Shown here piece by piece: positions 1-28,239 of a DNA stretch of 64,000 nt. Both the position numbers and the translations under genes were made by a program. Within the stretch, counting starts at the first letter, position 1. Every line of letters starts with the position of its first letter. The notes beneath the pieces are model-generated. The model saw only the letters and a list, made by a program, of their open reading frames with translations. It had not been told where the DNA came from and did no database searches. Origin of the DNA: Eubacteriaceae bacterium (lineage in GTDB: Bacteria > Bacillota > Clostridia > Eubacteriales > Eubacteriaceae); assembly GCA_012522805.1 (NCBI GenBank), contig JAAYJS010000018.1:1-64000 (forward strand), given 5' to 3'.

Positions 1-466
1 CTAAACTGTCTTCATCGATGTTGATACCCGGAAAATAAGGGATGTACTTAATTTCTAAAGCTACGGGCAAGATGTCTTGATAGAGAATTGTTTGAATACG
101 AACAATTTTTGTGTAAGGCGCAACCTGGAGATGATAAACCATGTCAATGTCAGCTGGTTGAACATCGACATTCAATAATTCAGCTTTTGTAAAGCCACCT
201 TTGATTAAAAGCTTCGGCAAATACAATACTTTAAAATTGTTGATTGTAAACTCTTTGACATAACTTCCTTTTCCCGGTTTGGAGATGACATAACCTTCAT
301 TGCTTAAAATTTCTATAGCTTTGCGTATGGTCATTCTACTTACTTTGTATTCCTGGCTTAAAGCGTTCTCAGAAGGAAGCATGTCTCCGGGCTTCCAAAA
401 TTTACTGAGTATTTTGATACGTAACGTTTCCGCTATGTGTAAATATTTGAATTCAGTTGTTTTCAT
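1..466 (-). CDS. GntR-family transcriptional regulator (C-terminus outside window)
   Basis: Not in the ORF track because the stop lies beyond the left edge. Translating from the ATG at 466 gives about 155 residues. The first 70 form a GntR winged helix, with the recognition-helix region reading like YKVSRMTIRKAIEILSNEG. A UTRA/FadR-type effector region begins after that. The start overlaps the 3' end of the corrinoid-protein gene by 14 bases on the same strand, so the two are very likely co-transcribed. By position it probably regulates the methyltransferase operon in response to a substrate; the ligand cannot be told. Family assignment is firm. Confidence 0.85.
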   Translation of the reverse strand, partial: MKTTEFKYLHIAETLRIKILSKFWKPGDMLPSENALSQEYKVSRMTIRKAIEILSNEGYVISKPGKGSYVKEFTINNFKVLYLPKLLIKGGFTKAELLNVDVQPADIDMVYHLQVAPYTKIVRIQTILYQDILPVALEIKYIPYFPGINIDEDSL

Positions 467-1097
467 GCTTAATCCAATCTTGACAAATTTTCAAACCTTG
501 AATCGCAGAACGTGTGTAGGCATCTGCACCGGCTAAATCGCAGACAGCTTGAGTTGCAACGCAACCACCTATAATAATTTTAACATTTTGCCGAGTACCG
601 GCTTTTACGAATGCATCTACCGTATCCTTTATGGCAGGAATACAGTCGGTTAAGACTGCGGAAATTCCAACGATAAAGCAGTTATTTTTTAAAGCTGCAG
701 TTACAAAATCTTCAGGAGAGACATCTATGCCGATGTCTTTGACGATGAAGCCACCGGCAGCCAAAGCACCTTTATAGATATTTTTTCCTATGTCGTGAAT
801 ATCGCCCTCTACAGTTCCTACTAAAATAGTATGGGATTCAACCTCTGTTTCTATGTTGTCATACATGCTGCAGATATCGGTCCGCTCCAAGGCATCTTCA
901 AAAATCATTCCGACTACCATCAAATCTGCAATGGAATATTCGCCTTTTTCGTATAGACGCCCCACCTTGTCTAAACCTTCATTTAATGCTTGCCATATTG
1001 CTTGCTTTGGCACTTGAGCGATGATACATCGATCTAAGAGTTTAATAACTTTTTGATCGTTGAGTTCCGTAACAGCATCAATCAGCATTTTTTTCAT
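453..1097 (-). CDS. Methyltransferase cognate corrinoid protein (MtbC/MttC/MtaC type)
   Basis: 214 residues, the usual length of corrinoid shuttle proteins. An N-terminal helical cap domain (about 1-90) is followed by a Rossmann-like B12-binding domain carrying the DxHxxG signature (GDIHDIGKN, near residue 100), the SxL region (GISAVLT) and the GG motif (IIIGGC). The His is the lower axial cobalt ligand. It carries a methyl group between an MttB-type methyltransferase and an acceptor methyltransferase in the cytosol. It lies downstream of an mttB homologue on the same strand, but a terminator-like hairpin and about 280 bases separate them. RBS GAGG precedes ATG 1097. The partner substrate is not determined by sequence. 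Confidence 0.93.
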   Translation of the reverse strand: MKKMLIDAVTELNDQKVIKLLDRCIIAQVPKQAIWQALNEGLDKVGRLYEKGEYSIADLMVVGMIFEDALERTDICSMYDNIETEVESHTILVGTVEGDIHDIGKNIYKGALAAGGFIVKDIGIDVSPEDFVTAALKNNCFIVGISAVLTDCIPAIKDTVDAFVKAGTRQNVKIIIGGCVATQAVCDLAGADAYTRSAIQGLKICQDWIKHENN

Positions 1098-1312
1098 ACT
1101 TACCTCACAAAATTCTAGGTTTTATGTTTCATTGATTGTAACATAAATGCATATAATCAAAAAAAGATTAGAATTTATAAGCATTTACGATACTAAAATT
1201 GATGGTGATTGACAACTTGATATTCCTTGAAACTGAGTTTGTAAGATGATTCAGAATCATGGTTTGAATATCAAATATTATCTCTATTGTGCGAGTCCAA
1301 TCCAATAAAAAG

Positions 1313-1354
1313 AAGGGCACGATCAAGCGAAAAAATAGATTGCTTCGTACCCTT
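1313..1354 (-). terminator. Rho-independent terminator after mttB-like gene 1
   Basis: AAGGGCACGA...GCTTCGTACCCTT forms a bulged stem; read on the minus strand it is followed by CTTCTTTTTATT. It sits between the methyltransferase and the corrinoid gene, so the corrinoid gene either depends on readthrough or has its own promoter. Confidence 0.65.
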
Positions 1355-1378
1355 GCTAAATTATGTAGTTTCAGTTAA

Positions 1379-2791
1379 CTAGTATTTACAAGCCTCCGGC
1401 AAATATCGGTTTAATAGTTCCTTTTGCTCTTTAGTTCTTTCAGGCAATTGGTATTTATTGATACGACGTTCTATTTCTGCTAAGGCTAGAAGATGTATTT
1501 CTTTTTTCTCAGGTTTTGTGTCCTCTGAGACACCATATTTTGAAAATATTTTTGGTAGATAGAAATCTTCTCTGTAACGTTTTGGTGTTCGTCCACTTAA
1601 AAATGTGTTGCTATCAATCGAGTTTAACATATCGTCAATGACATTGGGATCTATATTTTGGTTGATGCCCTTCAGATAATGGTTTGAAATGCGAATGAGT
1701 TCTTCATCATAGATAGCTTTTTCAAAGCTTCCGCAATAAAATCCAGACATTAATCCGGGATAACAATAGACGCAATCAATCTCAGTCAATTCAAAGGGTA
1801 ATAATGTTGTGATGGTTGATTCGACACCGGCTTGAAAATCTGGTTTGGCAGAATCTGCAAGCGTTGCACATATGGAACAACTTAATTTGTAGGATAAACA
1901 TAATTCGTAGAACCCTACAGAAACAAACACTTCTTCGACAGACCCATAAGATGGTTGAAGCGTTCGCATGTCCGCTGCTGTACTACACACGGAATAGTAA
2001 ATTTCAGTGCCTGGTCTTAAAAGCTGAATATAGACAGTTCCGGCCAAGGCCAGAGCCATATCGTGTATGTTTAGTCCTAGAATATTTGCAGGACCTGTCA
2101 AATTTGCAAGTGTACAGGGTACCAATGTAATGCTCTGGCCTTGCACAACGGCCGCATTAATATTTAAAATACATTCATTATCATAACTGAGAGGAGACAT
2201 GGGGCAGATGCACTGGTTCATAATAACTTCGTCTTCACCAGCACCGCGTATTTCTCGAACCAGCTTAATGGCATCATAAGCACTTTGATAGATGTCTTTA
2301 TTTTTCGAATTCATACTGTTGGCTCTAAAACCATTCGTAAAAAATTTGTCGCTGTATTTTAGAAGCATTGCAATCTGTGCTACGTATTTATCTTCCGCAT
2401 CATTGTCGTGTGGATCAACAACGCAGATGCCGGCGCCTTCATACAAGTCTGAAGTTTCTCCAAGTTGATACATTTTTACAACATCTGAGATAGCGGCCCG
2501 TCTGTATTTTTCGGTTTCTTCATCTAAGATGTAGGGAACACCAAAAAACAATTGGTTGATTAACTTTCTTTCTGTAATTTCACCGATCTCGTAAGACGGA
2601 AAAGTACTTAAAGCATCTTCAATTTCTTTATCTGTTAAATAGACACGATCCCCTTCAACCCTGATACCGTGCTTTTTAAAAAGATCTAAGGCACTCTCAT
2701 GTTCAAAACGGATACCGACTTTTTGTAGCGTTTCCGATACCTTACTGCGTAAGTTAGAAATAGTGGAAGAATCTAAAAACTTTTTTTTCAT
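1379..2791 (-). CDS. MttB-like (COG5598) corrinoid-dependent methyltransferase, non-pyrrolysine, copy 1
   Basis: 470 residues, matching the trimethylamine-methyltransferase superfamily, with a (beta/alpha)8 barrel expected across the chain. The C-terminus has the family pattern FLSGRTPKRYREDFYLP. The ORF has no internal TAG, so it is not the pyrrolysine enzyme that uses trimethylamine. Characterised non-Pyl members demethylate glycine betaine, proline betaine, carnitine or butyrobetaine and pass the methyl to a corrinoid protein, such as the one encoded downstream. It starts 16 bases after the winged-helix gene. It ends in TAG, showing that amber is used as a real stop here. The substrate is unknown. 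Confidence 0.9.
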   Translation of the reverse strand: MKKKFLDSSTISNLRSKVSETLQKVGIRFEHESALDLFKKHGIRVEGDRVYLTDKEIEDALSTFPSYEIGEITERKLINQLFFGVPYILDEETEKYRRAAISDVVKMYQLGETSDLYEGAGICVVDPHDNDAEDKYVAQIAMLLKYSDKFFTNGFRANSMNSKNKDIYQSAYDAIKLVREIRGAGEDEVIMNQCICPMSPLSYDNECILNINAAVVQGQSITLVPCTLANLTGPANILGLNIHDMALALAGTVYIQLLRPGTEIYYSVCSTAADMRTLQPSYGSVEEVFVSVGFYELCLSYKLSCSICATLADSAKPDFQAGVESTITTLLPFELTEIDCVYCYPGLMSGFYCGSFEKAIYDEELIRISNHYLKGINQNIDPNVIDDMLNSIDSNTFLSGRTPKRYREDFYLPKIFSKYGVSEDTKPEKKEIHLLALAEIERRINKYQLPERTKEQKELLNRYLPEACKY

Positions 2792-2807
2792 ACTAATTCA
2801 TTGACAG

Positions 2808-3083
2808 TTATAAAATATACTGTTCAACTTTCTCCTTTCCATAATCTGTGAGCTTGTAAGAACTCACCAATTCGCTTTCTTCTGTTAGATGTGCCTTTTC
2901 TACGGTTATCAAACCTGCGCCTCTCATAGACATCAGGTGACCATCCAGCGCATCTACAGTTGCTTGTTTTTCATTGGGATAAATAGTTTTAACTTTTTCA
3001 TACAATTCGAAAGGTGTTAAAGCATTATCGTCATCATGCAGTATTTTAAGAATTGAAAATCTCAAAGGTAATTGACTCATCAT
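2808..3083 (-). CDS. Small winged-helix DNA-binding protein
   Basis: 91 residues. It reads as a single winged helix: an N-terminal helix (LPLRFSILKILHDDD), a helix-turn-helix around residues 20-55 with MRGAGLITVEK as recognition helix and wing, and TDYGKEKVEQ at the C-terminus, like PadR/MarR-type stand-alone domains. It has no ligand domain. It is wedged between the EamA transporter (6 bases) and mttB-like gene 1 (16 bases), so it is probably an operon-borne regulator. GGAGCGA lies just before tandem ATGs. No closer family is recognised. Confidence 0.7.
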   Translation of the reverse strand: MMSQLPLRFSILKILHDDDNALTPFELYEKVKTIYPNEKQATVDALDGHLMSMRGAGLITVEKAHLTEESELVSSYKLTDYGKEKVEQYIL

Positions 3084-3089
3084 TCGCTC

Positions 3090-4100
3090 CTAGTTTTCTC
3101 TTATATTTATAATTTCACTGGGCTTACCGGCAACTAAACCGGCACCAATGACTGTAATAATAGCACCGATGATAATGTTTAAAGTGATGGTTGCACTTCC
3201 GGAAAACAACCAACCAAAAACAACGCCCCACAGTGCATAGGTGATCATCAATGCTAAAGCTCTAGAAACGCCTGTCATATTGATTGCGCTGTAGTAAAGA
3301 AAATACGAAATGGCATTGACAATCGCACCTGCTAGTAATATGAAGGTCCATGGTGATGTAAAAGACTTAATTAACAATTCATAACCAATTGTAGAGAAGC
3401 CCTTGACAAAAGGCAGAATAAACAAGAAATAGACAGAGAATGAAGTTACCCATCTGATGCCAATTGCTAAATCGGGATCTACTAGGTCCATACCATAGGC
3501 ACAGATTACACCCTCTATTCCCCAACCTAATGTAGCTACAAGACAAGCGATAATACCTAGTTTAAAATTTGGATAAATTTCTCCGGTTGGTGCAACATAA
3601 GTGACGACGATGGCACCTATGACACAAAACATGATACCAATCCAAGCATTTTTGCTAATTTTTTCTTTTAAAAATATTCTCGACAAAATAGCTCCCACAG
3701 CCGGATAGATAGCTGTTATGGCCATTGTGTAGAATGGACCGGCATAGTTTAGACCAATATAATATCCACTCATGGCCAGTGGACCACCGAACACTGAAGC
3801 AAGACATATAATTTTGCCCGGTTTGGTTTTTATGACTCTTACATACTCCTTTGCTTTTCCATTGTAAATATTGATAAACAAAGTGGTTATCGCAGCAAAG
3901 GCATCAGTTAGACATGCAATAACGAGCGGTACAATGTACAAACCCAAATTTGCGTAACTAATAAAAGGCTCTTTGTCGAACCCGAGGGAAATGACTACGC
4001 CCCCTAACCCCCATAACATTCCACTGATAACACCAAAGATAATACCTTTTTTTGCATAACGCAAATTTTTTTGAAACAGTGAATTTTTGATAGAAACCAT
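3090..4100 (-). CDS. EamA/DMT-superfamily permease (10 TM)
   Basis: 336 residues from the ATG at 4100, chosen because AAAGGAGAG lies 4 bases upstream; the ORF-track start adds 8 residues without an RBS. Ten hydrophobic segments form two five-helix repeats typical of drug/metabolite transporters. The first repeat has GVISGMLWGLGGVV and the second has CLVATLGWGIEGV. It is the first gene of the operon with the winged-helix protein and mttB-like 1. It is probably an inner-membrane carrier for the methylated substrate or its product; direction and substrate are not evident. Confidence 0.88.
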   Translation of the reverse strand: MVSIKNSLFQKNLRYAKKGIIFGVISGMLWGLGGVVISLGFDKEPFISYANLGLYIVPLVIACLTDAFAAITTLFINIYNGKAKEYVRVIKTKPGKIICLASVFGGPLAMSGYYIGLNYAGPFYTMAITAIYPAVGAILSRIFLKEKISKNAWIGIMFCVIGAIVVTYVAPTGEIYPNFKLGIIACLVATLGWGIEGVICAYGMDLVDPDLAIGIRWVTSFSVYFLFILPFVKGFSTIGYELLIKSFTSPWTFILLAGAIVNAISYFLYYSAINMTGVSRALALMITYALWGVVFGWLFSGSATITLNIIIGAIITVIGAGLVAGKPSEIINIREN

Positions 4101-4124
4101 ACAACTCTCCTTTCGTTTAAACAA

Positions 4125-4153: not shown

Positions 4154-4550
4154 CAAGTAAATAACAGATAGTTGTAAAATTTCGTAAATCAGATATAAAA
4201 TTGAAAAAAAGAAAGAAAAACTAGATTTTAAAAGCTTTTTTGAATAAAATAAAACAATAGTGAATGCAAAGAATCATGGCCACAGGATGTGCTAAAAGAA
4301 TGTGTTAAAATTTTGATACAATGTAAAAATTAGAGATTAAAAGATTAGAATTATCGGTATTAATTAAACATATTCAAATTGGCACCACCATTAACTTTAT
4401 AGTCAAATCATATAATGTGAACGCAACAGGTGTGTCATTTGAAAAACTGATGCTATTTTAATTAGAAAAATTATTTTGGGAAAATAAGGAACGATTGAGC
4501 GGAAAAAACTTCAAAAAGATTCAATATTTAATAAAGAAACTTGAATCAAT
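4154..4550. other. Intergenic gap, A+T rich, possible decayed coding scrap
   Basis: About 400 bases with no ORF of normal length. On the plus strand a short open stretch ending near 4462 translates as IGTTINFIVKSYNVNATGVS, which reads like protein rather than random A+T-rich DNA, but it has no start, no RBS and no recognisable family. It may be a remnant. Confidence 0.3.
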
Positions 4551-4593
4551 CAATGTTTAAAACCGATGTTGACAACATCGGTTTTAAACATTG
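4551..4593 (-). terminator. Long perfect inverted repeat, terminator after BCCT gene
   Basis: CAATGTTTAAAACCGATGTTG and its exact reverse complement are separated by a single base, giving 21-bp arms, 8 bases after the BCCT stop. The stem contains T-tracts on both strands, so it can act in either direction. Confidence 0.8.
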
Positions 4594-4601
4594 GGTGAGT
4601 G

Positions 4602-6140
4602 TTAAGACTCAGAAATACTTTTTTTGCGATACTTCAACAACATTTTAAAACAACTGGCAACGATAATCCCATAGACGATACAAGTGGGCAGAGCGAGGAT
4701 AATAGATAAAACTTGTAAATCCTCTAAAGAAGCACCCAACCACATCATAACCATGGGGATAGCCGCTAAGCTGATTGCCCAAAACATAGTTAGCGGTTTG
4801 CCCGGGCGTTCGCCCAATTGTATCTTTTTGGAGGAGACCATGGCCAAGGTATAGGAAGCGGAATCAAAATTGGTTGCCATAGAAATAATAGATGCAATTA
4901 AAATACTCAAGACAAATACCACGCCGACGGGTAAGCTTCTAAAAACCTGAATAACGGTTTGCGGACCGCCGACACTTTTCAAGCTGCCGAGGACATCAAA
5001 ACTGCCGTTCAGGTGTTTGCCCATAAAGAAATTTCCCCAAATGGAGAAAAACACAAATGTTCCGGCAAAGCCGTAAATTAAACCGCCAAAAATAATTTGA
5101 AATACGGTGCGTCCCTTGGATATTTTGGCGATGAATAGGCCCATAAAAATGGAATAAGACATCCACCAAGCAAGATAAAACACCAACCAGGCCTCCGGGT
5201 GTCCGCTGTTATTGATGGGATCCATATAGGTACTGAGATGGATAAAGTTTTGCATCAATTTACCTAAAGCGGTGGTCGACATTTTAATGATAAAAACGGT
5301 ATCGCCGAGAATAAACATAATAGCCGCAAGTGAAATCATCACAAACACATTGATATCGGAAAGAACTTTAATACCTTTTTTAACACCCAGATAGGCAGAA
5401 GTGGCAAAAATAGCTGCAACGACAATCATTACAATAGTTCTGAGTTGCGGTGTATCCTGCAAACCAAAAAGGTTATTTAAACTTGCAGATACCAAAGGAG
5501 ATCCGATTCCTAAGGCCGTACCGACCCCGCCGATCAGACCGAAGACAAAAAAGATGTTGAGAATCTTCCCTAAAGTGCCGTCAACACGATCGCCTAAAAC
5601 TTCGCGACATACGTTGGCGACATCAAATCGTTCCTGCTTTAATGTGAAGTGCACAAAAGCAAAAGCTACGGATGGTATCAAGTAAAGGCTCCATGCGGAA
5701 AAACCCCAATGCAATAAGGGAAGAGTTGCCGCATATTCGCCGGCCTCCACGGATAATGGCGCTAAACCGAAGGGAGGCGCACTGTAGTGGTAAGCCCATT
5801 CGATGCATCCCCAGTAGATAAAACCCGCAGCCATGGATGCGCAAAACATCATGGCTGCCCAGGAAAATTCAGAGTATTCTTTTTCGGCATCTTCGCCCAT
5901 TTTAATGTCTTTAAACTTAGAGCTTAACCCCATATAAAGACATAATACGATGGATATGATTGCCAACCAAATATACCACCAACCAAAATTAACGGCAATA
6001 AAATCGTTAATTTGATTGATAATACGTGTACTCTGTTCCGGCATTGCAAATAGAAAAATGCAAGATACCGCAACAAATATTAAAGATACGGATACGACAG
6101 TCCAGTCTATATTCGATTGTTTTTCTTTATTATGATTCAT
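4602..6140 (-). CDS. BCCT-family betaine/carnitine/choline transporter
   Basis: 512 residues with about 12 membrane helices. The tryptophan-rich substrate region typical of BetP/OpuD/CaiT is visible (GFSAWSLYLIPS, and WWMSYSIFMGLFIAKISKGR in TM8). It lacks the long charged tails of osmosensing BetP, so it is more likely a nutrient carrier or exchanger. It is last in the operon mttB-like 2 / MFS / BCCT, 55 bases after the MFS gene. BCCT carriers move quaternary ammonium compounds, which supports a betaine-like substrate for the neighbouring methyltransferase. The precise substrate is an inference. Confidence 0.93.
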   Translation of the reverse strand: MNHNKEKQSNIDWTVVSVSLIFVAVSCIFLFAMPEQSTRIINQINDFIAVNFGWWYIWLAIISIVLCLYMGLSSKFKDIKMGEDAEKEYSEFSWAAMMFCASMAAGFIYWGCIEWAYHYSAPPFGLAPLSVEAGEYAATLPLLHWGFSAWSLYLIPSVAFAFVHFTLKQERFDVANVCREVLGDRVDGTLGKILNIFFVFGLIGGVGTALGIGSPLVSASLNNLFGLQDTPQLRTIVMIVVAAIFATSAYLGVKKGIKVLSDINVFVMISLAAIMFILGDTVFIIKMSTTALGKLMQNFIHLSTYMDPINNSGHPEAWLVFYLAWWMSYSIFMGLFIAKISKGRTVFQIIFGGLIYGFAGTFVFFSIWGNFFMGKHLNGSFDVLGSLKSVGGPQTVIQVFRSLPVGVVFVLSILIASIISMATNFDSASYTLAMVSSKKIQLGERPGKPLTMFWAISLAAIPMVMMWLGASLEDLQVLSIILALPTCIVYGIIVASCFKMLLKYRKKSISES

Positions 6141-6194: not shown

Positions 6195-7490
6195 TTAAGA
6201 AACTTGCTCATTCGTTTCTTCAAGTTGCAATTGTTGTTGCTTTTTTGCATAGCGCAAAGTGGCAAGACAAAATACGATGGCTATCAAAGCGCTGGCTGCC
6301 AAGCAAATAAAGATATAGTTAAAGCCTTCATTTGCATATTTGTCGATAAAACCGCCAAAAACTTGATGCATAAAGCTTTCAGGTAAAAAGCCGATGACGG
6401 ACAACATACCTGTTGCAGCACCGAAAATATGCGGCGGTACCTTAGTTTCGGTCAAAACGGAGGAGGCAATCCCATAGGCGCCGTTGGCGATAAAGCCTAA
6501 CACCAAAGTAACGACAATGGCAATCATCATAAAGGCCGCCGTTTTGGGCATGATCAGGTAAGAGACAATACAAATGGCAGAGCCGATCATTCCGATGATG
6601 ATGGTCTTAGATGGAGAATTTAATTTTTTAGCAATGCCCCCCATTAGCGGAGATGCGATGATGGCAATACCGTAGTAACGGATCATTCCGATAATTGAAA
6701 CCATGACCATGGGCACGGCGTACACATTGGTTAAAAAGGGTGTGGTGAAATTCATACCCATGTAGACGATCATAACAAAGAAGAGAGTCAAACTGGCGAG
6801 CCAAGCACCGGGATGGCGAAGGGCTTCCTTAAATTCGTTGACATTAAACTTTTTATTGGCTTCCGTATTGACTTCGCCTTTAAACTTAGGTATGAAGATA
6901 TATGAGATGATGCCTAAAATTAAAATAACCGTACCTAAAAAGATTAAGGACATACGCACACCGATGCGATATTCCGGCATGGTATTAAATAGAGCCAAGG
7001 TTACAACGTTGATGGCAAGACCGCCTAATCCGTACAAAGCGTAAGAGATACCGACAATGACGGGGTATTCATCTCCGGAGCCGCTAAAACGCAATAATTT
7101 ATAACGACATCCCCAAAAGATGAGAATAGTCGTGACTGCCATTAAAGCAAATATTAAAACTAAAGTATTGTAGGAAGGTAACATGGCATACCAATAGGTC
7201 ATAAAGGCCGTGGTGATAAAACCCACAGAGGCCAAAGTACGAATCCTGAATTTATCCGCAACTATACCGCAAGGAATATACAAAATGGTCGCCATAATAC
7301 CGTACATACCGGATAGAAAACCGAGTTGCGCATTGGTGATATTTAAACCTACCAATAAGGGTTCATAAAAAACGTTTTTCAAATATATAGGCGTATAAAT
7401 AATACCGCTACCGGCACCGGATAAAAAAATCATCAAAGCACGTCTGAACTTCGATAGGTCTTTATAGGTTAATTCTTTTTTATGATTCAT
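6195..7490 (-). CDS. MFS transporter
   Basis: 431 residues with about 12 predicted membrane helices. The motif-A-like loop after TM2 is GIVADKFRIRTLASVGF. There is a second half with weaker repeats, and a glutamine-rich cytosolic tail (KKQQQLQLEET). It resembles the nitrate/oxalate-type MFS carriers often found beside amine-degradation genes. It lies between mttB-like 2 (89 bases, with a hairpin) and BCCT (55 bases), all minus strand, so one transcript is expected. Substrate unknown. Confidence 0.88.
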   Translation of the reverse strand: MNHKKELTYKDLSKFRRALMIFLSGAGSGIIYTPIYLKNVFYEPLLVGLNITNAQLGFLSGMYGIMATILYIPCGIVADKFRIRTLASVGFITTAFMTYWYAMLPSYNTLVLIFALMAVTTILIFWGCRYKLLRFSGSGDEYPVIVGISYALYGLGGLAINVVTLALFNTMPEYRIGVRMSLIFLGTVILILGIISYIFIPKFKGEVNTEANKKFNVNEFKEALRHPGAWLASLTLFFVMIVYMGMNFTTPFLTNVYAVPMVMVSIIGMIRYYGIAIIASPLMGGIAKKLNSPSKTIIIGMIGSAICIVSYLIMPKTAAFMMIAIVVTLVLGFIANGAYGIASSVLTETKVPPHIFGAATGMLSVIGFLPESFMHQVFGGFIDKYANEGFNYIFICLAASALIAIVFCLATLRYAKKQQQLQLEETNEQVS

Positions 7491-7532
7491 AGTTTTACGT
7501 GTAAAACACGCCTCCTTTTATAATGAATATCC

Positions 7533-7565
7533 ACCGAAGGAATGAAAGAGATTCATTCCTTCGGT
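7533..7565 (-). other. Intercistronic hairpin inside the mttB-MFS-BCCT operon
   Basis: ACCGAAGGAATGAA and its exact complement form a 14-bp stem with a 5-base loop just after the mttB-like 2 stop. On the minus strand there is no downstream T-run before the MFS gene, so it looks more like an RNA-stability or partial-attenuation element than a full terminator. Confidence 0.55.
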
Positions 7566-7578
7566 ACAAGGGGTTTTA

Positions 7579-9030
7579 TTAGAATTTATATTTGTCCGGT
7601 AAATGTTTGTTTAATAAGTCTTTTTGTCGTTTGTCAAAATCCGGGAGTTCGTAGCTTTCGATACGTTCTTTGAAGACATTGTAAGAGCGTTCTCTAATAT
7701 CTTTTACTTTCTCTATGTCGGTCGGTGTGCAACCGCTGCGGTTAAATACCGGTGTGGTTAGGTAGGTTTCCTCCCTGTAGTCTTTCGATGTTCTGCCACT
7801 CAAGTAATTACCCCTGGGTCCGATTTTCTTAATTAAATTAAAATTGGATTTTTTATCGGATACGGCAACACCTTGACGCAAACGTCTCATATAGCGGAGC
7901 ATTTCTTCATCCATCATAAATTTTGGGAAACTTAAGAGGTTAAAGTTGGATAGGTCGCCGGCGGCATGGGGAAGGATACAACCGTCAGAGAGGGCGATAG
8001 CCAAAGCTCCCAAGGTACTTTCAACACCGGCCTGATAGTCGTAGGTAAAGCCGTCAGCCAAAGAACCCGAACAACGAACGGGGATGCGATGGTAGCTTCC
8101 TAAAGCCAGGTGACCGAGCATGATCAACATAAATTCCGGAGCACCTGTCATTAATCGAACTTCTCTTAGGTCTGTAATGGAGGAGAAGGGGCTTAGGATA
8201 ACCGGCAAACCCGGTTCGATCAGTTGAATCATTATGGCGACTGCCAACATGTTGGCGTAGTCTGCGACAATAGAACCCATCAAAGAGGGCGGTGCTGTTA
8301 AGTGGGACATGGAGCAAGTTGTAATGGTAATGGGTTGTTTTTCTTCTGCATAACCGATATAATGACCAATAGCATCCCAACCAACGGTTAGTGGCGGAAG
8401 AACACACATACCGCTATAGCATACATAATCATCAAAGTTGTCGTATAATTGTTTGATGAGTTGTACAGTTGCTTTTGCACCTTCTTTTGCAGAGCCGCAT
8501 TTATAGTTGTGTGGGGTAATACCTAAAATATTGTAAATAGGTTTGCGGGAGTATTTTCCTAGGAAGGCCATTTGTGCCATGGCGGATTCGGTAGGTGAAT
8601 TTTCAAATCCCGGAATATCGGCTGATACTTGGGAAGAGATATCCCAGACAGGGTCGGTATTTAATAGCTTGTAAAAGTTTTCCAAATCATCGGAATTTAA
8701 TGGACGTATCTTACCGTCCCAATCTTCCAGAGTAGGACAGCCGTTGGTTGGCGCTATAATAAAATCTTTGCCTATACCGATTTCCAAATCATTTTCATAA
8801 CCTTTGATGGTGAAGGATTCCGGTATGGTTTTCAATGCATCATTTACCATGGATTCGGAAATATAGACAATATCGCCTTCTAATTTGGCGCCGTGTTTTC
8901 TGAAGATTTCCAGTGCTTCTTCATCTTCAAACTTAACACCAACTTCTTCCAGGGTGCGCAGGACGTAGGCATGCATCAACTCTACATCTTCTTTTGAGAA
9001 AAAAACATCATACAAATTACCTTTTAACAT
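7579..9030 (-). CDS. MttB-like (COG5598) methyltransferase, non-pyrrolysine, copy 2
   Basis: 483 residues, homologous to copy 1 over its length (shared EVGVKFEDEEALEIFRKHGA-like N-terminus and YLSGRTSKDYREETYL C-terminus). There is no in-frame TAG, so it belongs to the non-Pyl glycine-betaine/carnitine/proline-betaine branch. It is first in an operon with MFS and BCCT carriers, and the start is preceded by a GGAG-type RBS. No corrinoid protein is in this operon, so it would share the one at 453-1097 or one elsewhere. A consensus sigma-54 promoter lies 48 bases upstream. Confidence 0.91.
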   Translation of the reverse strand: MLKGNLYDVFFSKEDVELMHAYVLRTLEEVGVKFEDEEALEIFRKHGAKLEGDIVYISESMVNDALKTIPESFTIKGYENDLEIGIGKDFIIAPTNGCPTLEDWDGKIRPLNSDDLENFYKLLNTDPVWDISSQVSADIPGFENSPTESAMAQMAFLGKYSRKPIYNILGITPHNYKCGSAKEGAKATVQLIKQLYDNFDDYVCYSGMCVLPPLTVGWDAIGHYIGYAEEKQPITITTCSMSHLTAPPSLMGSIVADYANMLAVAIMIQLIEPGLPVILSPFSSITDLREVRLMTGAPEFMLIMLGHLALGSYHRIPVRCSGSLADGFTYDYQAGVESTLGALAIALSDGCILPHAAGDLSNFNLLSFPKFMMDEEMLRYMRRLRQGVAVSDKKSNFNLIKKIGPRGNYLSGRTSKDYREETYLTTPVFNRSGCTPTDIEKVKDIRERSYNVFKERIESYELPDFDKRQKDLLNKHLPDKYKF

Positions 9031-9077: not shown

Positions 9078-9094
9078 TGCAAGATGTGTGCCAA
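9078..9094 (-). promoter_or_regulatory. Sigma-54 (-24/-12) promoter for mttB-like 2 operon
   Basis: Minus strand TTGGCACACATCTTGCA has GG and GC exactly 10 bases apart and matches YTGGCACG-N4-TTGCW at nearly every position. It faces the divergent sigma-54 activator gene at 9210. Confidence 0.85.
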
Positions 9095-9209
9095 GTATTA
9101 AATCTTAAAAAAGACGAAATTACGAATGAAAAGGATACAATACTTCTGATATTTTCTCATTTGTGATAAAATATTTCTCAAATAATATAAAAAACGGAGG
9201 TGACTCGAG

Positions 9210-10595
9210 TTGGAAAAAATATTAGACTACCAACAATATTTATTAGATTTACCTAAAGAGACGTATATTACAATTTTAGAAAATTGTTATTCGGAAATAA
9301 CAGTGGCTAATACAGATGGAGATGTCATCTATGCTAACCCCAAAAGCATTGAGTGTCACGGCATCTTACCGGAAAACATGAGGGATATTAATTTTTTAAC
9401 GTCCTACAACGGTTTGTGGACACCGCCCTCTACCCAATATGCCATCGACACAGGAAGAACGGTATTTTGTCGCCAAAAATATTTATTGGACAAAAAACTA
9501 CACATTACCATCACTACGCCGGTTTACGATGAGAATAACGAATTGGAGATGATCGTTTATACCTCTATGGATGACGATGCGATTCAACATTTTGATATCG
9601 ATTATTTGGAAGAATCGGGTAGTAATAAGATAAGTGCTCGAGAAAAGCAAAAGTCGGATAACAATATTGTCGGTAACTCTTACATTATATATAAAACCCT
9701 CAACCGATTGTACCAGGCGGCTAAATCCGATATCCCTGTATTGTTGTTGGGAGAAACCGGTGTCGGCAAAAGTTTGTTCGCCAAATATATCCATGATTGC
9801 AGTCCCAGAAAAGATGCACCTTTTATTTCTATTAATTGCGCTTCTATTCCGGATAATCTGATAGAGAGTGAATTGTTCGGTTATGTTCCCTACGCTTTTA
9901 CCGGCGCCAGTCCTAAGGGTAAAAAGGGGTTGGTGGAGCTTGCCAACGGCGGCACCTTATTTTTAGATGAAATTGGAGAGCTGGAGTGGAACATTCAGGT
10001 TTAATTGTTGGATTTTTTAGAAAATCAGCGTTTTATCTCTGTAGGCGGTTTAGAACAAAAATATGTGGATACGCGTATCGTTACCGCGACCAATAAAAAC
10101 ATCGACAAACAGGTAGAAAAAGGTGTTTTTAGAGAAGATTTGTTTTGGCGTATTAATGGTATTACTCAAACGATACCCCCCTTAAGGGAACGCAGTAGCG
10201 ATATTATTCCCTTGCTTAAGTATTTTTTATCCTTACATAATAAAAAATACAATAAAAACAAACAATTCTCCGACGACGTGTTAAAGTTATTGATGTCCTA
10301 CAGTTGGCCGGGCAACGTTCGGCAACTTAGAAGTGCCGTAGAATACATGGCTGCCATGAGTATCGGCAATATGATTGAAACGGATCACTTGCCGGAGCAA
10401 GTCGCAAAATACGTTGATATGGAAATCCTTAAAAATGGGGAGTCTCTTTACAATGTATTGCTGGAGTCCTATAAAAAGAAAATTGTGATCAATTATTACA
10501 ATGAAGCCAAAAATGTAAAAACTTTTGCGGATACATTGGGTATCTCACAGGCCAACGCCTATAGACTCATCAATACTTATGTCAACGATGGGTAA
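9210..10595 (+). pseudogene. Sigma-54-dependent activator (PAS-AAA+-HTH) interrupted by in-frame TAA
   Basis: Start is TTG 9210 with CGGAGG 9 bases upstream. An N-terminal PAS-like sensor domain covers about residues 15-130. The AAA+ domain has Walker A GETGVGKS, an FTGA sigma-54 contact loop (YAFTGAS) and Walker B GGTLFLDEIGEL. A C-terminal helix-turn-helix ends the protein. The ORF track splits it at TAA 10002-10004. The same frame continues without a gap as LLDFLENQRFISVGG, exactly what follows in NtrC-family proteins, where a Lys codon (AAA) is expected in place of TAA. It is divergent from the sigma-54-promoted operon and almost certainly its regulator. As read, the ATPase is cut before its arginine finger, so it would be non-functional. 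Confidence 0.9.
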
Positions 10596-15002: not shown

Positions 15003-17135
15003 TTAAATATAATACAAAATGTCCTCGTAAATGGGGAAGGGCCAATGGCGGCTTGCAACGTAGGATTCCAGACGGTCGGCGACAAGGCGCAGGGCCTTCA
15101 TAGCAGGGATGACGGTGTCGTGGCAATGGTTGGCTCGGTTTTGAGAGTTAGCAATGTCTTTGTTTTCCGAAAGAGTCATTTCCAATCGGTCGATGTCCGC
15201 AACCAATTCATCGCAATCTTGAGAAAGTTTTTGAATCAAGCGGTCTTCTATCGCTGTTAATGCTTCCAAACCGGCCATCTTCTTTTGGGCATAACCCGTG
15301 GCGATGTCTTGACTATATGCCAGTGCAGCGGGTAAGATCTCTCTTTTTGCGATGGTTAACATGGTTCGCGCTTCGATGGTAATGGTCTCGGAGTAATCCG
15401 ACAGGTGAATCTCCTGCCGTGCCATCAATTCGGGGCCGGTGTAAATATTGTGGTTTTCAAATAAAAGGATATTCTTATCCAAACAATAGTTGGCAAAGGC
15501 TTCCGGGGTGCTCTTCAAGTTGGGCAATCCTCTTTTACGGGCCTCTTGTAGCCAATGTTCGGTGTAGTTGTTGCCGTTAAAAATAACCCGTTTATGATTG
15601 CGAATGGAGTTTTTAAGAACCCGTCGCAATGCTTTTTCGAAATTATCCGCACCTTCCAATTGGTCGGCAAATTCCCGCAATACTTGGGCGACCATGGTGT
15701 TTAAGGCGATGTTGGGGCCGGCGATGCTTTGGTTGGAACCCAGCATTCTGAACTCAAATTTGTTTCCCGTAAAAGCCATGGGAGAGGTTCTGTTACGGTC
15801 GTTGTTATCGATTTTAAAACTGGGAACCGCTTCGATACCTAAATCCATAATGAGATCGGACACGGCATGAATGGGTGCGCCGGTTTCTAAGGATTCTAAA
15901 GCTGCGGTTAATTGCTCACCTAAAAAGATCGACAAAATGGCCGGTGGTGCTTCGCTACCGCCGAGACGCATATCGTTGCCTGCGGTTGCAATGGTACAAC
16001 GGAGCATTTCCGGGTAGCGGTCGACCGCTTCGACAAAGGCCGTTACAAAAGTCAAAAATTGCAAGTTGTCTTGGAGGGTATCTCCGGGGTTTAGAAGATT
16101 TTCCCCCGTGTTGGTTGTCATGGACCAATTGTTATGCTTGCCGGAACCATTGATACCTTGAAAGGGTTTTTCATGAAGCAAACAGGCAAAATTGTGACGG
16201 GCCGCCACTTTCTGCATGTATTCCATGATCAATTGGTTGTTGTCCGTGGCCATATTGGTGTTGGTATACACCGGGGCCTATTCATGTTGGGCAGGAGCGG
16301 ATTCGTTGTGACGTGTTTTAGAGGGAATACCCAATTGCCACAATTCTCTGTCCAGATCGCACATAAAGGAATGCACTCTGCCGCGGATTCGCCCGTAATA
16401 ATGGTCATCCTTTTCTTGTCCCTTAGGTGGGCGGTTACCGAACAGGGTGCGACCGGTCAGGGTTAAATCCTTACGTTTTTTAAAATCGTTGCGATCGATG
16501 AGAAAATATTCCTGCTCCGCACCGACATTGGTGTTTACTTTTTTGACATCGGTTTTGCCGAAAAGGTGTAAAATGCGTACGGCTTCCTTGGATAAACTTT
16601 TATCCGAGCGCAGCAAAGGCGTTTTTTTATCTAAAATTTCGCCGGAAAAGGACACAAAGGTTGTGGGGATGCAGAGGGTCGTGCCCTTAATAAAGGCAAA
16701 GGAGGTGGGATCCCAAGCGGTATAGCCCCGAGCTTCAAAGGTTGCTCGCAAACCGCCACTGGGAAAGGAGGAAGCGTCGGATTCGCCTTTAATGAGTTCT
16801 TTTCCTGAAAACTCCATGATCACCTTACCTTCGGTGGTGGGGCTGATGAAAGCTTCGTGCTTTTCCGCAGTGATGCCGGTCATGGGCTGAAACCAATGGG
16901 AAATATGGGTAACGCCATATTCCATAGCCCAGTCCTTCATGGCGCTGGCTACAACTTCCGCGACGTTTTCATCCAAGGGCAGGTCTTTTAAGACGGTGTC
17001 CACCATCGCTTTGTAGATATGCTTGGGCAGGCGCTTGCGCATGACGGTATAATTAAAGACCTTCGACCCGAAAAGATTGATGACGTCCTCTTTATTATCG
17101 TAAAAATGTTGAGGTTCATTTTGATTTTGAAACAT
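15003..17135 (-). pseudogene. glnN: Glutamine synthetase type III interrupted by in-frame TAG
   Basis: Two ORFs (16278-17189 and 15003-16271) are one reading frame of about 710 codons, the normal length of the dodecameric GSIII. ATG 17135 is chosen because of GGAGAG just before it. The stop TAG at 16278-16280 falls inside the conserved stretch [13 protein letters not shown]-stop-AP, where GSIII proteins have Leu (TTG to TAG is one change). Downstream residues (DNNDRNRTSPMAFTGNKFE) are perfectly conserved, so the gene was recently intact or the base is an error. GSIII makes glutamine from glutamate, ammonia and ATP. No other glutamine synthetase is in the window. Confidence 0.93.
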
Positions 17136-17178
17136 GGACTCTCCTTTGCAAATTGGTATCAAAGAATAGAATGAGGTT

Positions 17179-17207
17179 ATTATAATCAAAGAAGATTGAA
17201 AAGTAAA
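17179..17207 (-). promoter_or_regulatory. Sigma-70 promoter for glnN
   Basis: On the minus strand TTTACT and TATAAT are 17 bases apart, about 45 bases before the glnN start. Confidence 0.6.
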
Positions 17208-26458: not shown

Positions 26459-26677
26459 GGGGGCCTTGGCACTAATCCGGTTAAATTGGACGGCAGTTTC
26501 AGTCAAAGTCATTTTAGGGAGCGGGTGATCAGCACCAATATGAAAATGCTCCAAAGAATAATCAAGATGGTGGCTGTTGCTAGAGGAGAAGATAAGATCG
26601 ATGCGATCATCGGTGTTTTGAGAACGGGTGCAGTCAATCACCCAATCACCGACGATGGCACAGCGGGACAATTGTGA
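26459..26677 (+). pseudogene. C-terminal remnant of a SorC-family sugar-responsive regulator
   Basis: About 70 codons with no start codon; an in-frame TAG lies just upstream at 26456. The segment ARGEDKIDAIIGVLRTGAVN followed by ITDDGTAGQL matches the end of SorC/DeoR-type effector domains (AGGEEKAEAILGALRGGLIN...ITDEATA). The DNA-binding part is gone. It lies 47 bases before the FGGY kinase, the classic position for the repressor of such a sugar operon. Confidence 0.7.
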
Positions 26678-26724
26678 ATACTGATCCAATAGGATGTCAT
26701 AAAAAACACTTAAGGAGGGTAATC

Positions 26725-28239
26725 ATGAAGTACATTATTGGAATTGATGCTGGAACGTCAAACGTAAAGGCAGTTTTGTTTGATACGGAGGGGACAGAGA
26801 TCCTTGTGGAAGCTATTGAAAATGAGCCCATCTACATCGGAGCAACGGACATCGAACAGAATATGACCGTGCTTTGGGATAAGGTGGCTCTTTGTATCAA
26901 AATGCTCATGGAAAACGGACCGGCAAAGGCTGAAGATATTTTAGCCATTGGTGTCACTGGACAAGGAGAGGGGATTTGGCTCATTGACGACAATGGCGTT
27001 CCGGTTCAAGATGCGATTTTATGGTGTGACGGACGTGCTGTCGACGAAGTGGAAAAAGTAACGGTAGACGATCCGGAGCTGGGAAGAATGATCCACAAAG
27101 TGACGGGAACACCGGCATTAACCGGTACCCAATTAATGCTTTTGCGCTGGATGAAGCAGAATCGTAAAGACGTCTTAGATAAAGCGTCCACCATGTTCTT
27201 CTGTAAAGACTGGGTGCGCTATAAATTGACCGGGTAACTCAATAGCGATTTGAGTGATGCGGGGACATCGCTATTAGACTCTGCAAAGGGTGTGGTTGCA
27301 GAAGAATTGTTGGCCAAATTGGGTCTTGGGGACTATATTGAATTGATACCGCCGGTATTAAAGAGCGATGCCATTGTCGGTACGCTCACGCCCCAAATGG
27401 CAACAGAACTGGGATTAAAAGAAGAAATTCCGGTAGTAGCAGGCGCCATTGACGTGGTGGCGGCAGCAGTGGGAATCGGAGTCGTAGATGTCAAAGACGT
27501 TTGCGTTATTTTGGGGACCACATGTGCCAATGAAATCTTCCTGCATAAATCCGATTGTGATTTCGGGAAGGAAGGTACGCGCTACGAAAAACATGCCGTT
27601 GGTGATTTATTTATGAATCTATTGCCCACCATGAACGGAACGCCGAACTTAGATTGGGTGATCAACGAAATTGCCATGACCCAAGACTTTAAACAAATCG
27701 ATGCCATGATTTCAGAAGTGCCTGCCGGTAGCGGTGGCGTCATTTATCATCCCTATATCAGCGCGGCGGGAGAAAGAGCTCCCTTTTACAATCCCCATGC
27801 CAAGGCAGGATTTTTTGGCATCAATGCGAAGACCAACCGTGCCACTTTAGTCAATGCGGTTTACGAAGGCATCAGCTTTTCCATCAAAGACTGCTTACAA
27901 GGGGTCGACAAAAACGGCCGGGTCTTTTTAGCCGGTGGTGGCGCCAAGAGCAGTGTTTGGGCGCAAATGATTGCAGATGTTCTGGGAATGGAAGTTGTGA
28001 TTTCTGAAGGCAATGAATTTGGTGCCAAAGGGGTGGCCATGTCCGCCGGTGTGGCCGTGGGTGAATATAAAGATTACCACGATGCCGCAGAACGCACCTG
28101 TAAAATCAGCAAAAGCTACCTTCCTAATATGGAGAATAACAAAGTTTACGAAGCCCTGTATCCTTTATATAAAGAAATTAGAGAAGTACAAGGAGACTTG
28201 TGGAACAAACGGGCGGCTATCATGAAAACAATCGGCTAG
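26725..28239 (+). pseudogene. FGGY-family carbohydrate kinase interrupted by in-frame TAA
   Basis: ATG 26725 follows AAGGAGG. One frame of 505 codons is split by TAA 27235-27237 in YKLTG-stop-LNSDLSDAGTSLLD, where relatives have Glu (GAA to TAA). The N-domain phosphate loop GIDAGTSNVKAV and the C-domain GGGAKSSVWAQMIADV are intact, as in xylulokinase/erythritol-kinase-like proteins. It would phosphorylate a sugar, polyol or sugar acid for the downstream dehydrogenase and aldolases. As read it is truncated to the first third. Confidence 0.92.

Follow-up and report, generated by a model that had tools for sequence, protein, structure and literature searches.

The divergently arranged locus described here, a gene for a sigma-54 activator facing an operon that encodes a non-pyrrolysine MttB-superfamily methyltransferase (mttB2), an MFS transporter and a BCCT transporter, is, as judged from sequence, with good probability a sigma-54 switch that makes quaternary-amine use inducible. 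It lies in a stretch of 64,000 nucleotides of a Eubacteriaceae bacterium (the window), taken from a draft genome of 47 contigs. In the proposed scheme the activator, composed of a PAS-like sensor, an AAA+ ATPase and an HTH, would bind the inverted repeat TTNTCA-N4-TGANAA approximately 70 bp upstream of the -24 element. Upon sensing of the substrate it would remodel the RNA polymerase-sigma-54 complex at TTGGCAC-N5-TTGCA, and this remodelling would switch on the genes for the presumably corrinoid-dependent demethylase and for both transporters. A betaine-like quaternary amine would presumably serve as inducer and substrate. The activator gene is interrupted by an in-frame stop that is really present in the assembly, yet this stop should be treated as biology only after base errors in the assembly have been excluded. 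The features of the locus are collected in Table 1.

Table 1. Features of the mttB2 locus, with positions in the window.
Feature	Position	Strand	Remarks
-24/-12 (sigma-54) promoter of mttB2-MFS-BCCT	9078..9094	-	perfect match; same place in 6 related genomes
Candidate activator-binding dyad TTNTCA-N4-TGANAA	9154..9169	.	core of 11-bp inverted repeat 9149-9174
mttB2, non-pyrrolysine MttB-superfamily methyltransferase	7579..9030	-	PF06253 1e-66
15-bp hairpin, mttB2/MFS gap	7532..7566	-	hairpins same place in several relatives
MFS transporter	6195..7490	-	PF07690 6e-25; 72-74% identical neighbour in relatives
BCCT transporter	4602..6140	-	PF02028 1e-130; third operon gene also in E. barkeri and E. 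aggregans (60%)
Long perfect hairpin after BCCT gene	4550..4594 (approximate)	-	putative operon end
Sigma-54 activator gene (PAS-like, AAA+, HTH), interrupted	9210..10595	+	orthologues 59-63% identical, full length
In-frame TAA in AAA+ domain	10002..10004	+	Lys in 19/19 orthologues

The promoter, which a preliminary description of the DNA had called near-perfect, turns out to be perfect: TTGGCACACATCTTGCA (9094-9078, minus strand) shows zero mismatches to TTGGCAC-N5-TTGCA, with the -24 GG and -12 GC elements placed in this context upstream of mttB2, at a distance of 47 bases from the start codon. All other matches to the pattern within the window have at least two mismatches, and the 2.02 Mb genome holds three perfect sites including this one. 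The second (C21:17682) is flanked by an activator gene on one side and its downstream operon on the other, while the third (C27:4493), taken for a regulon member at first reading, was dropped because it is located within an ORF.

The same description had let the promoter read into mttB2, MFS and BCCT genes, and the family matches to PF06253, MFS and BCCT bear this out for the three closely spaced genes. PF06253 spans the full length of mttB2, whose best solved relative is a glycine betaine methyltransferase (9yce, 4e-54). Neither MttB gene of the window contains an in-frame TAG, and against the Pyl-dependent trimethylamine methyltransferase model TIGR02369 mttB2 reaches 179.6 bits, the curated cut-off being 525. 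Homology and the neighbouring MFS and BCCT genes suggest that mttB2 encodes a corrinoid-dependent demethylase of a betaine-like quaternary amine. Several relatives have counterparts of the mttB2/MFS hairpin, which differ from it in sequence, and the long perfect hairpin downstream of the BCCT gene is the likely end of the operon. Beyond it (453-4124, minus strand) genes for a corrinoid protein, a second MttB and an EamA transporter are found, the window beginning at a contig end; mthB of the E. limosum choline pathway likewise adjoins an EamA gene (PMC12155760).

The activator gene starts with a TTG at 9210, preceded by the Shine-Dalgarno sequence GGAGGTGA at 9196-9203. The TAA is in frame with this start, the remainder of the frame is open to 10595, and the sequence is coding-like both before and after the stop. 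It had been proposed that the TAA replaces a Lys codon inside the AAA+ domain; in full agreement, the corresponding column holds AAA or AAG and never a stop in all 19 orthologues from other genomes. The stop follows Walker A (GETGVGKS) and Walker B (LFLDEIGE), both of which are present in the window activator, as are domain matches to Sigma54_activat (PF00158, 5e-59) and AAA_lid_14 (3e-24). At the GAFTGA loop (residues 225-233) this protein and all orthologues aligned have YAFTGA. Of the PAS-AAA+-HTH architecture assigned earlier, the AAA+ domain is firm, whereas the flanking parts are less distinct: PAS_9 is detected in three of four members of the activator family (best value 1e-5) but not in the window protein, the predicted structure of the first half is of low confidence (pLDDT 40) with a PAS-like order of elements, and the HTH scores weakly here and is clear only in the orthologues. 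Since the TAA precedes lid and HTH, the C-terminal HTH is not part of one uninterrupted protein as it is in the intact orthologues. Should the stop be real, the truncated product would end within the AAA+ domain and, having neither lid nor HTH, would be unable to bind the dyad. Dating of the lesion by excess divergence after the stop gave no usable signal because the window activator sits on a longer branch overall; its identity to orthologues is 77-82% in the AAA+ part before the stop (75-93% among intact pairs) and 52-59% after the stop (57-84% among intact pairs).

A search for activator orthologues covering 60 relatives, in line with the comparison of related genomes that had been suggested, showed that the order activator, sigma-54 promoter, mttB2 (74-77% identity) and MFS gene (72-74%) is kept in six other Eubacteriaceae genomes, namely E. 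callanderi FD and two very similar genomes, a Eubacterium MAG, E. barkeri and E. aggregans. The activator is intact in all six. The next orthologues come from an Acetobacterium-like genus, where the activator sits opposite another operon, consisting of an MtrH-like gene (labelled by recognition), BCCT, another MttB, a corrinoid protein and a further BCCT, and therefore the inducer may not be the substrate of MttB2.

The intergenic gap harbors a candidate binding site of the activator. The dyad was defined by aligning the gaps of the six-genome group and is exact in five of these six conserved gaps and missing in the sixth, a count made partly in the same sequences that served for its definition. 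Each of the six Acetobacterium-like gaps, none of which entered its definition, also has it, with at most one mismatch. The background is 0.079 per kb, and in 604 kb of the source genome only three exact occurrences are found, one of them in this gap. This dyad is taken as the putative site of the window activator. With gene order, promoter and candidate dyad conserved across genera, the pairing of activator and promoter is well supported at the level of comparative genomics, and the earlier assignment of the divergent gene as the partner of the operon holds.

With regard to known systems, RocR is a sigma-54 activator. In E. limosum, mtyB and mtcB encode demethylases of gamma-butyrobetaine and L-carnitine, respectively; MtyB adjoins an MFS gene and is divergent from a RocR homologue, MtcB has a RocR homologue as well, and detection of MtyB is confined to cells on its substrate, with none on lactate, proline betaine or carnitine (PMC8604678). 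The present locus resembles these loci in its non-pyrrolysine MttB gene beside an MFS gene and its divergent RocR-type regulator, but differs from them in the BCCT gene that follows and in the stop within the regulator. Sigma-54, a -24/-12 site or a dyad are not mentioned in PMC8604678; nevertheless, divergence of MtyB/MtcB from RocR homologues, taken together with the nature of RocR, makes sigma-54 control of MttB operons implicit in the literature. The view that sigma-54 control of a non-Pyl MttB operon deserves attention in itself is hence upheld as to the control but only in part as to its novelty, although an explicit statement of such control was not found in the literature searched. The dyad and the cross-genus conservation of the promoter appear to be undescribed in that literature. 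The activator is like enhancer-binding proteins of the RocR/PrdR type in its putative PAS-like N-terminus, sigma-54 AAA+ domain and HTH, and its best NCBIfam match is PrdR (2e-92, below the PrdR cut-off); unlike them it forms an orthologous group of its own in Eubacterium and Acetobacterium-like genomes and carries YAFTGA in place of GAFTGA. An activator beside its target operon and -24/-12 promoters are also features of the Clostridiales sigma-54 regulons surveyed in PMC6615313, the main text of which names no betaine, methylamine, methyltransferase or corrinoid regulon.

The pairing of mttB and activator recurs within the source genome: the site CTGGCATAACAATTGCT precedes another mttB (C16:13480), which has an unbroken activator gene two genes further along, and the activator of contig C47 is neighboured by a third mttB. 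The C47 paralogue reads DSFTGA where the window activator has YAFTGA. Conserved in related acetogens, the locus amounts to a rather ordinary regulatory unit to which a new candidate operator can be assigned.

The interrupted activator had led to the expectation of an operon that is silent unless another activator acts in trans. While the stop itself stands in the assembly, this expectation overlooks the only rpoN of the genome, a single gene (C21:28772-30133, minus strand) with an in-frame TAG at codon 77 (29905-29903), between region I and the core-binding domain; the rpoN genes of relatives are intact. A trans-acting activator alone would be no rescue if the stops are real because sigma-54 itself would be affected, and if those of activator and rpoN are both real the normal activation of the operon would be entirely lost. 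Furthermore, a second activator (C19:19960-21374, minus strand) is frameshifted at an A-run, while the CoA-transferase-like operon divergent from it keeps an intact -24/-12 site, TTGGCATAAAAGTTGCT.

Single interruptions are not confined to regulators. A census by eye for same-frame stops with coding sequence on both sides and no start nearby covered 604 kb of the 2.02 Mb, in stretches selected for the sigma-54 genes on them, and yielded about eight long genes with a single in-frame stop, including the window activator and rpoN. The genome search turned up a single glutamine synthetase gene, of type III (15003-17189, minus strand), which has one TAG at 16280-16278 in a conserved stretch, and an FGGY-family carbohydrate kinase (26674-28239, plus strand) has one TAA at 27235; the former is intact in relatives and the latter in the closest ones. 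Single stops are also found in a COG2509-like dehydrogenase (C1:79211), a DinB-like polymerase (C1:124477), a xanthine-dehydrogenase-like gene (C27:9418) and an aldehyde dehydrogenase (C47:12741), gene names other than glutamine synthetase and rpoN being given by sequence recognition. When the same scan was applied to two relatives (400 kb and 300 kb), nothing convincing came up; the hits proved on inspection to be artefacts of antisense frames or of neighbours. As no PylS above the cut-off is found in the genome, pyrrolysine read-through was discarded for the genes interrupted by TAG. Systematic recoding of TAA was discarded as well: TAA is the most frequent of the ordinary stops in the window, and the interrupting stops fall at unrelated residues. 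Of the changes behind the stops too few are well defined for their spectrum to be informative.

There is about an even chance that the TAA is a base error of the draft or a minority base, with an intact gene and a normally regulated operon. Base errors would explain why each lesion is the only one in an otherwise intact gene and why the sole glutamine synthetase is affected along with the sole rpoN; about eight such genes in 604 kb stand against none convincing in the 700 kb of the relatives, the genes depending on rpoN are still intact, and the assembly is a draft in 47 contigs. However, single-lesion pseudogenes also occur in sound genomes, and genes of the sigma-54 system are over-represented among the lesions (two of five with the triggering case excluded, versus 7 of 526 ORFs; Fisher p about 0.0025, the counts being made partly by eye).

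This over-representation would instead be explained by genuine recent nonsense mutation at an early stage of loss of the sigma-54 system, comprising rpoN and the activators of the window and of C19, with an operon that is no longer inducible. Such decay is a serious possibility, rated a little short of even. The in-frame TAG of rpoN and the frameshifted C19 activator beside its intact promoter fit with it, and neither rpoN nor the activator gives a match in several genomes of the family, small ones of 1.5 to 2.5 Mb, which suggests repeated loss of sigma-54 in the Eubacteriaceae. Contrary to this reading, promoters and structural genes are intact, the full-length activators of C16 and C21 are still open, and unrelated genes such as the glutamine synthetase are interrupted as well. 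Base error and real decay are thus roughly balanced, the former weighing slightly more, and either is compatible with the regulatory model.

It is improbable that, with a real stop, the operon is kept inducible by a paralogous activator acting in trans. The most likely candidate is the C47 activator, which among the paralogues of this genome aligns best with that of the window (46% over residues 143-460) and whose gene adjoins mttB and corrinoid-protein genes. Its HTH, VVKELGISQPKASRLIRKY, is nevertheless different from that of the window activator, TFADTLGISQANAYRLINTY, and the assembly's sole rpoN carries an interruption of its own.

A further reading, of very low probability, starts from an in-frame ATG of rpoN 24 codons after the TAG, at the start of the core-binding domain. 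Region I of sigma-54 imposes activator dependence, and forms of sigma-54 without it can initiate without an activator in vitro. Restart at this ATG would give a sigma-54 devoid of region I and a regulon that is becoming activator-independent; activators would then be dispensable, which would explain two of five being broken while promoters and operons are intact. Least credible of all is a bypass of the activator stop by TAA read-through or by restart at the TTG immediately 3' of it (10005), yielding a two-piece activator: the second frame is open to its end, but this TTG lacks a good ribosome-binding site, the AAA+ domain would be split, TAA is the ordinary stop of choice in the window, and no PylS is at hand for the TAG-interrupted genes.

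MttB-superfamily enzymes use up carnitine, betaine and related amines, from which other gut microbes make trimethylamine, and little has been described about how their operons are switched on. As to the interruption, one broken regulator in a draft genome calls for a genome-wide count of stops before it is interpreted. If the lesions of rpoN and the activator are real, the genome would offer an early snapshot of a sigma-54 loss that several relatives appear to have completed. The conserved promoter and dyad together provide a testable regulatory rule for Eubacterium and Acetobacterium.
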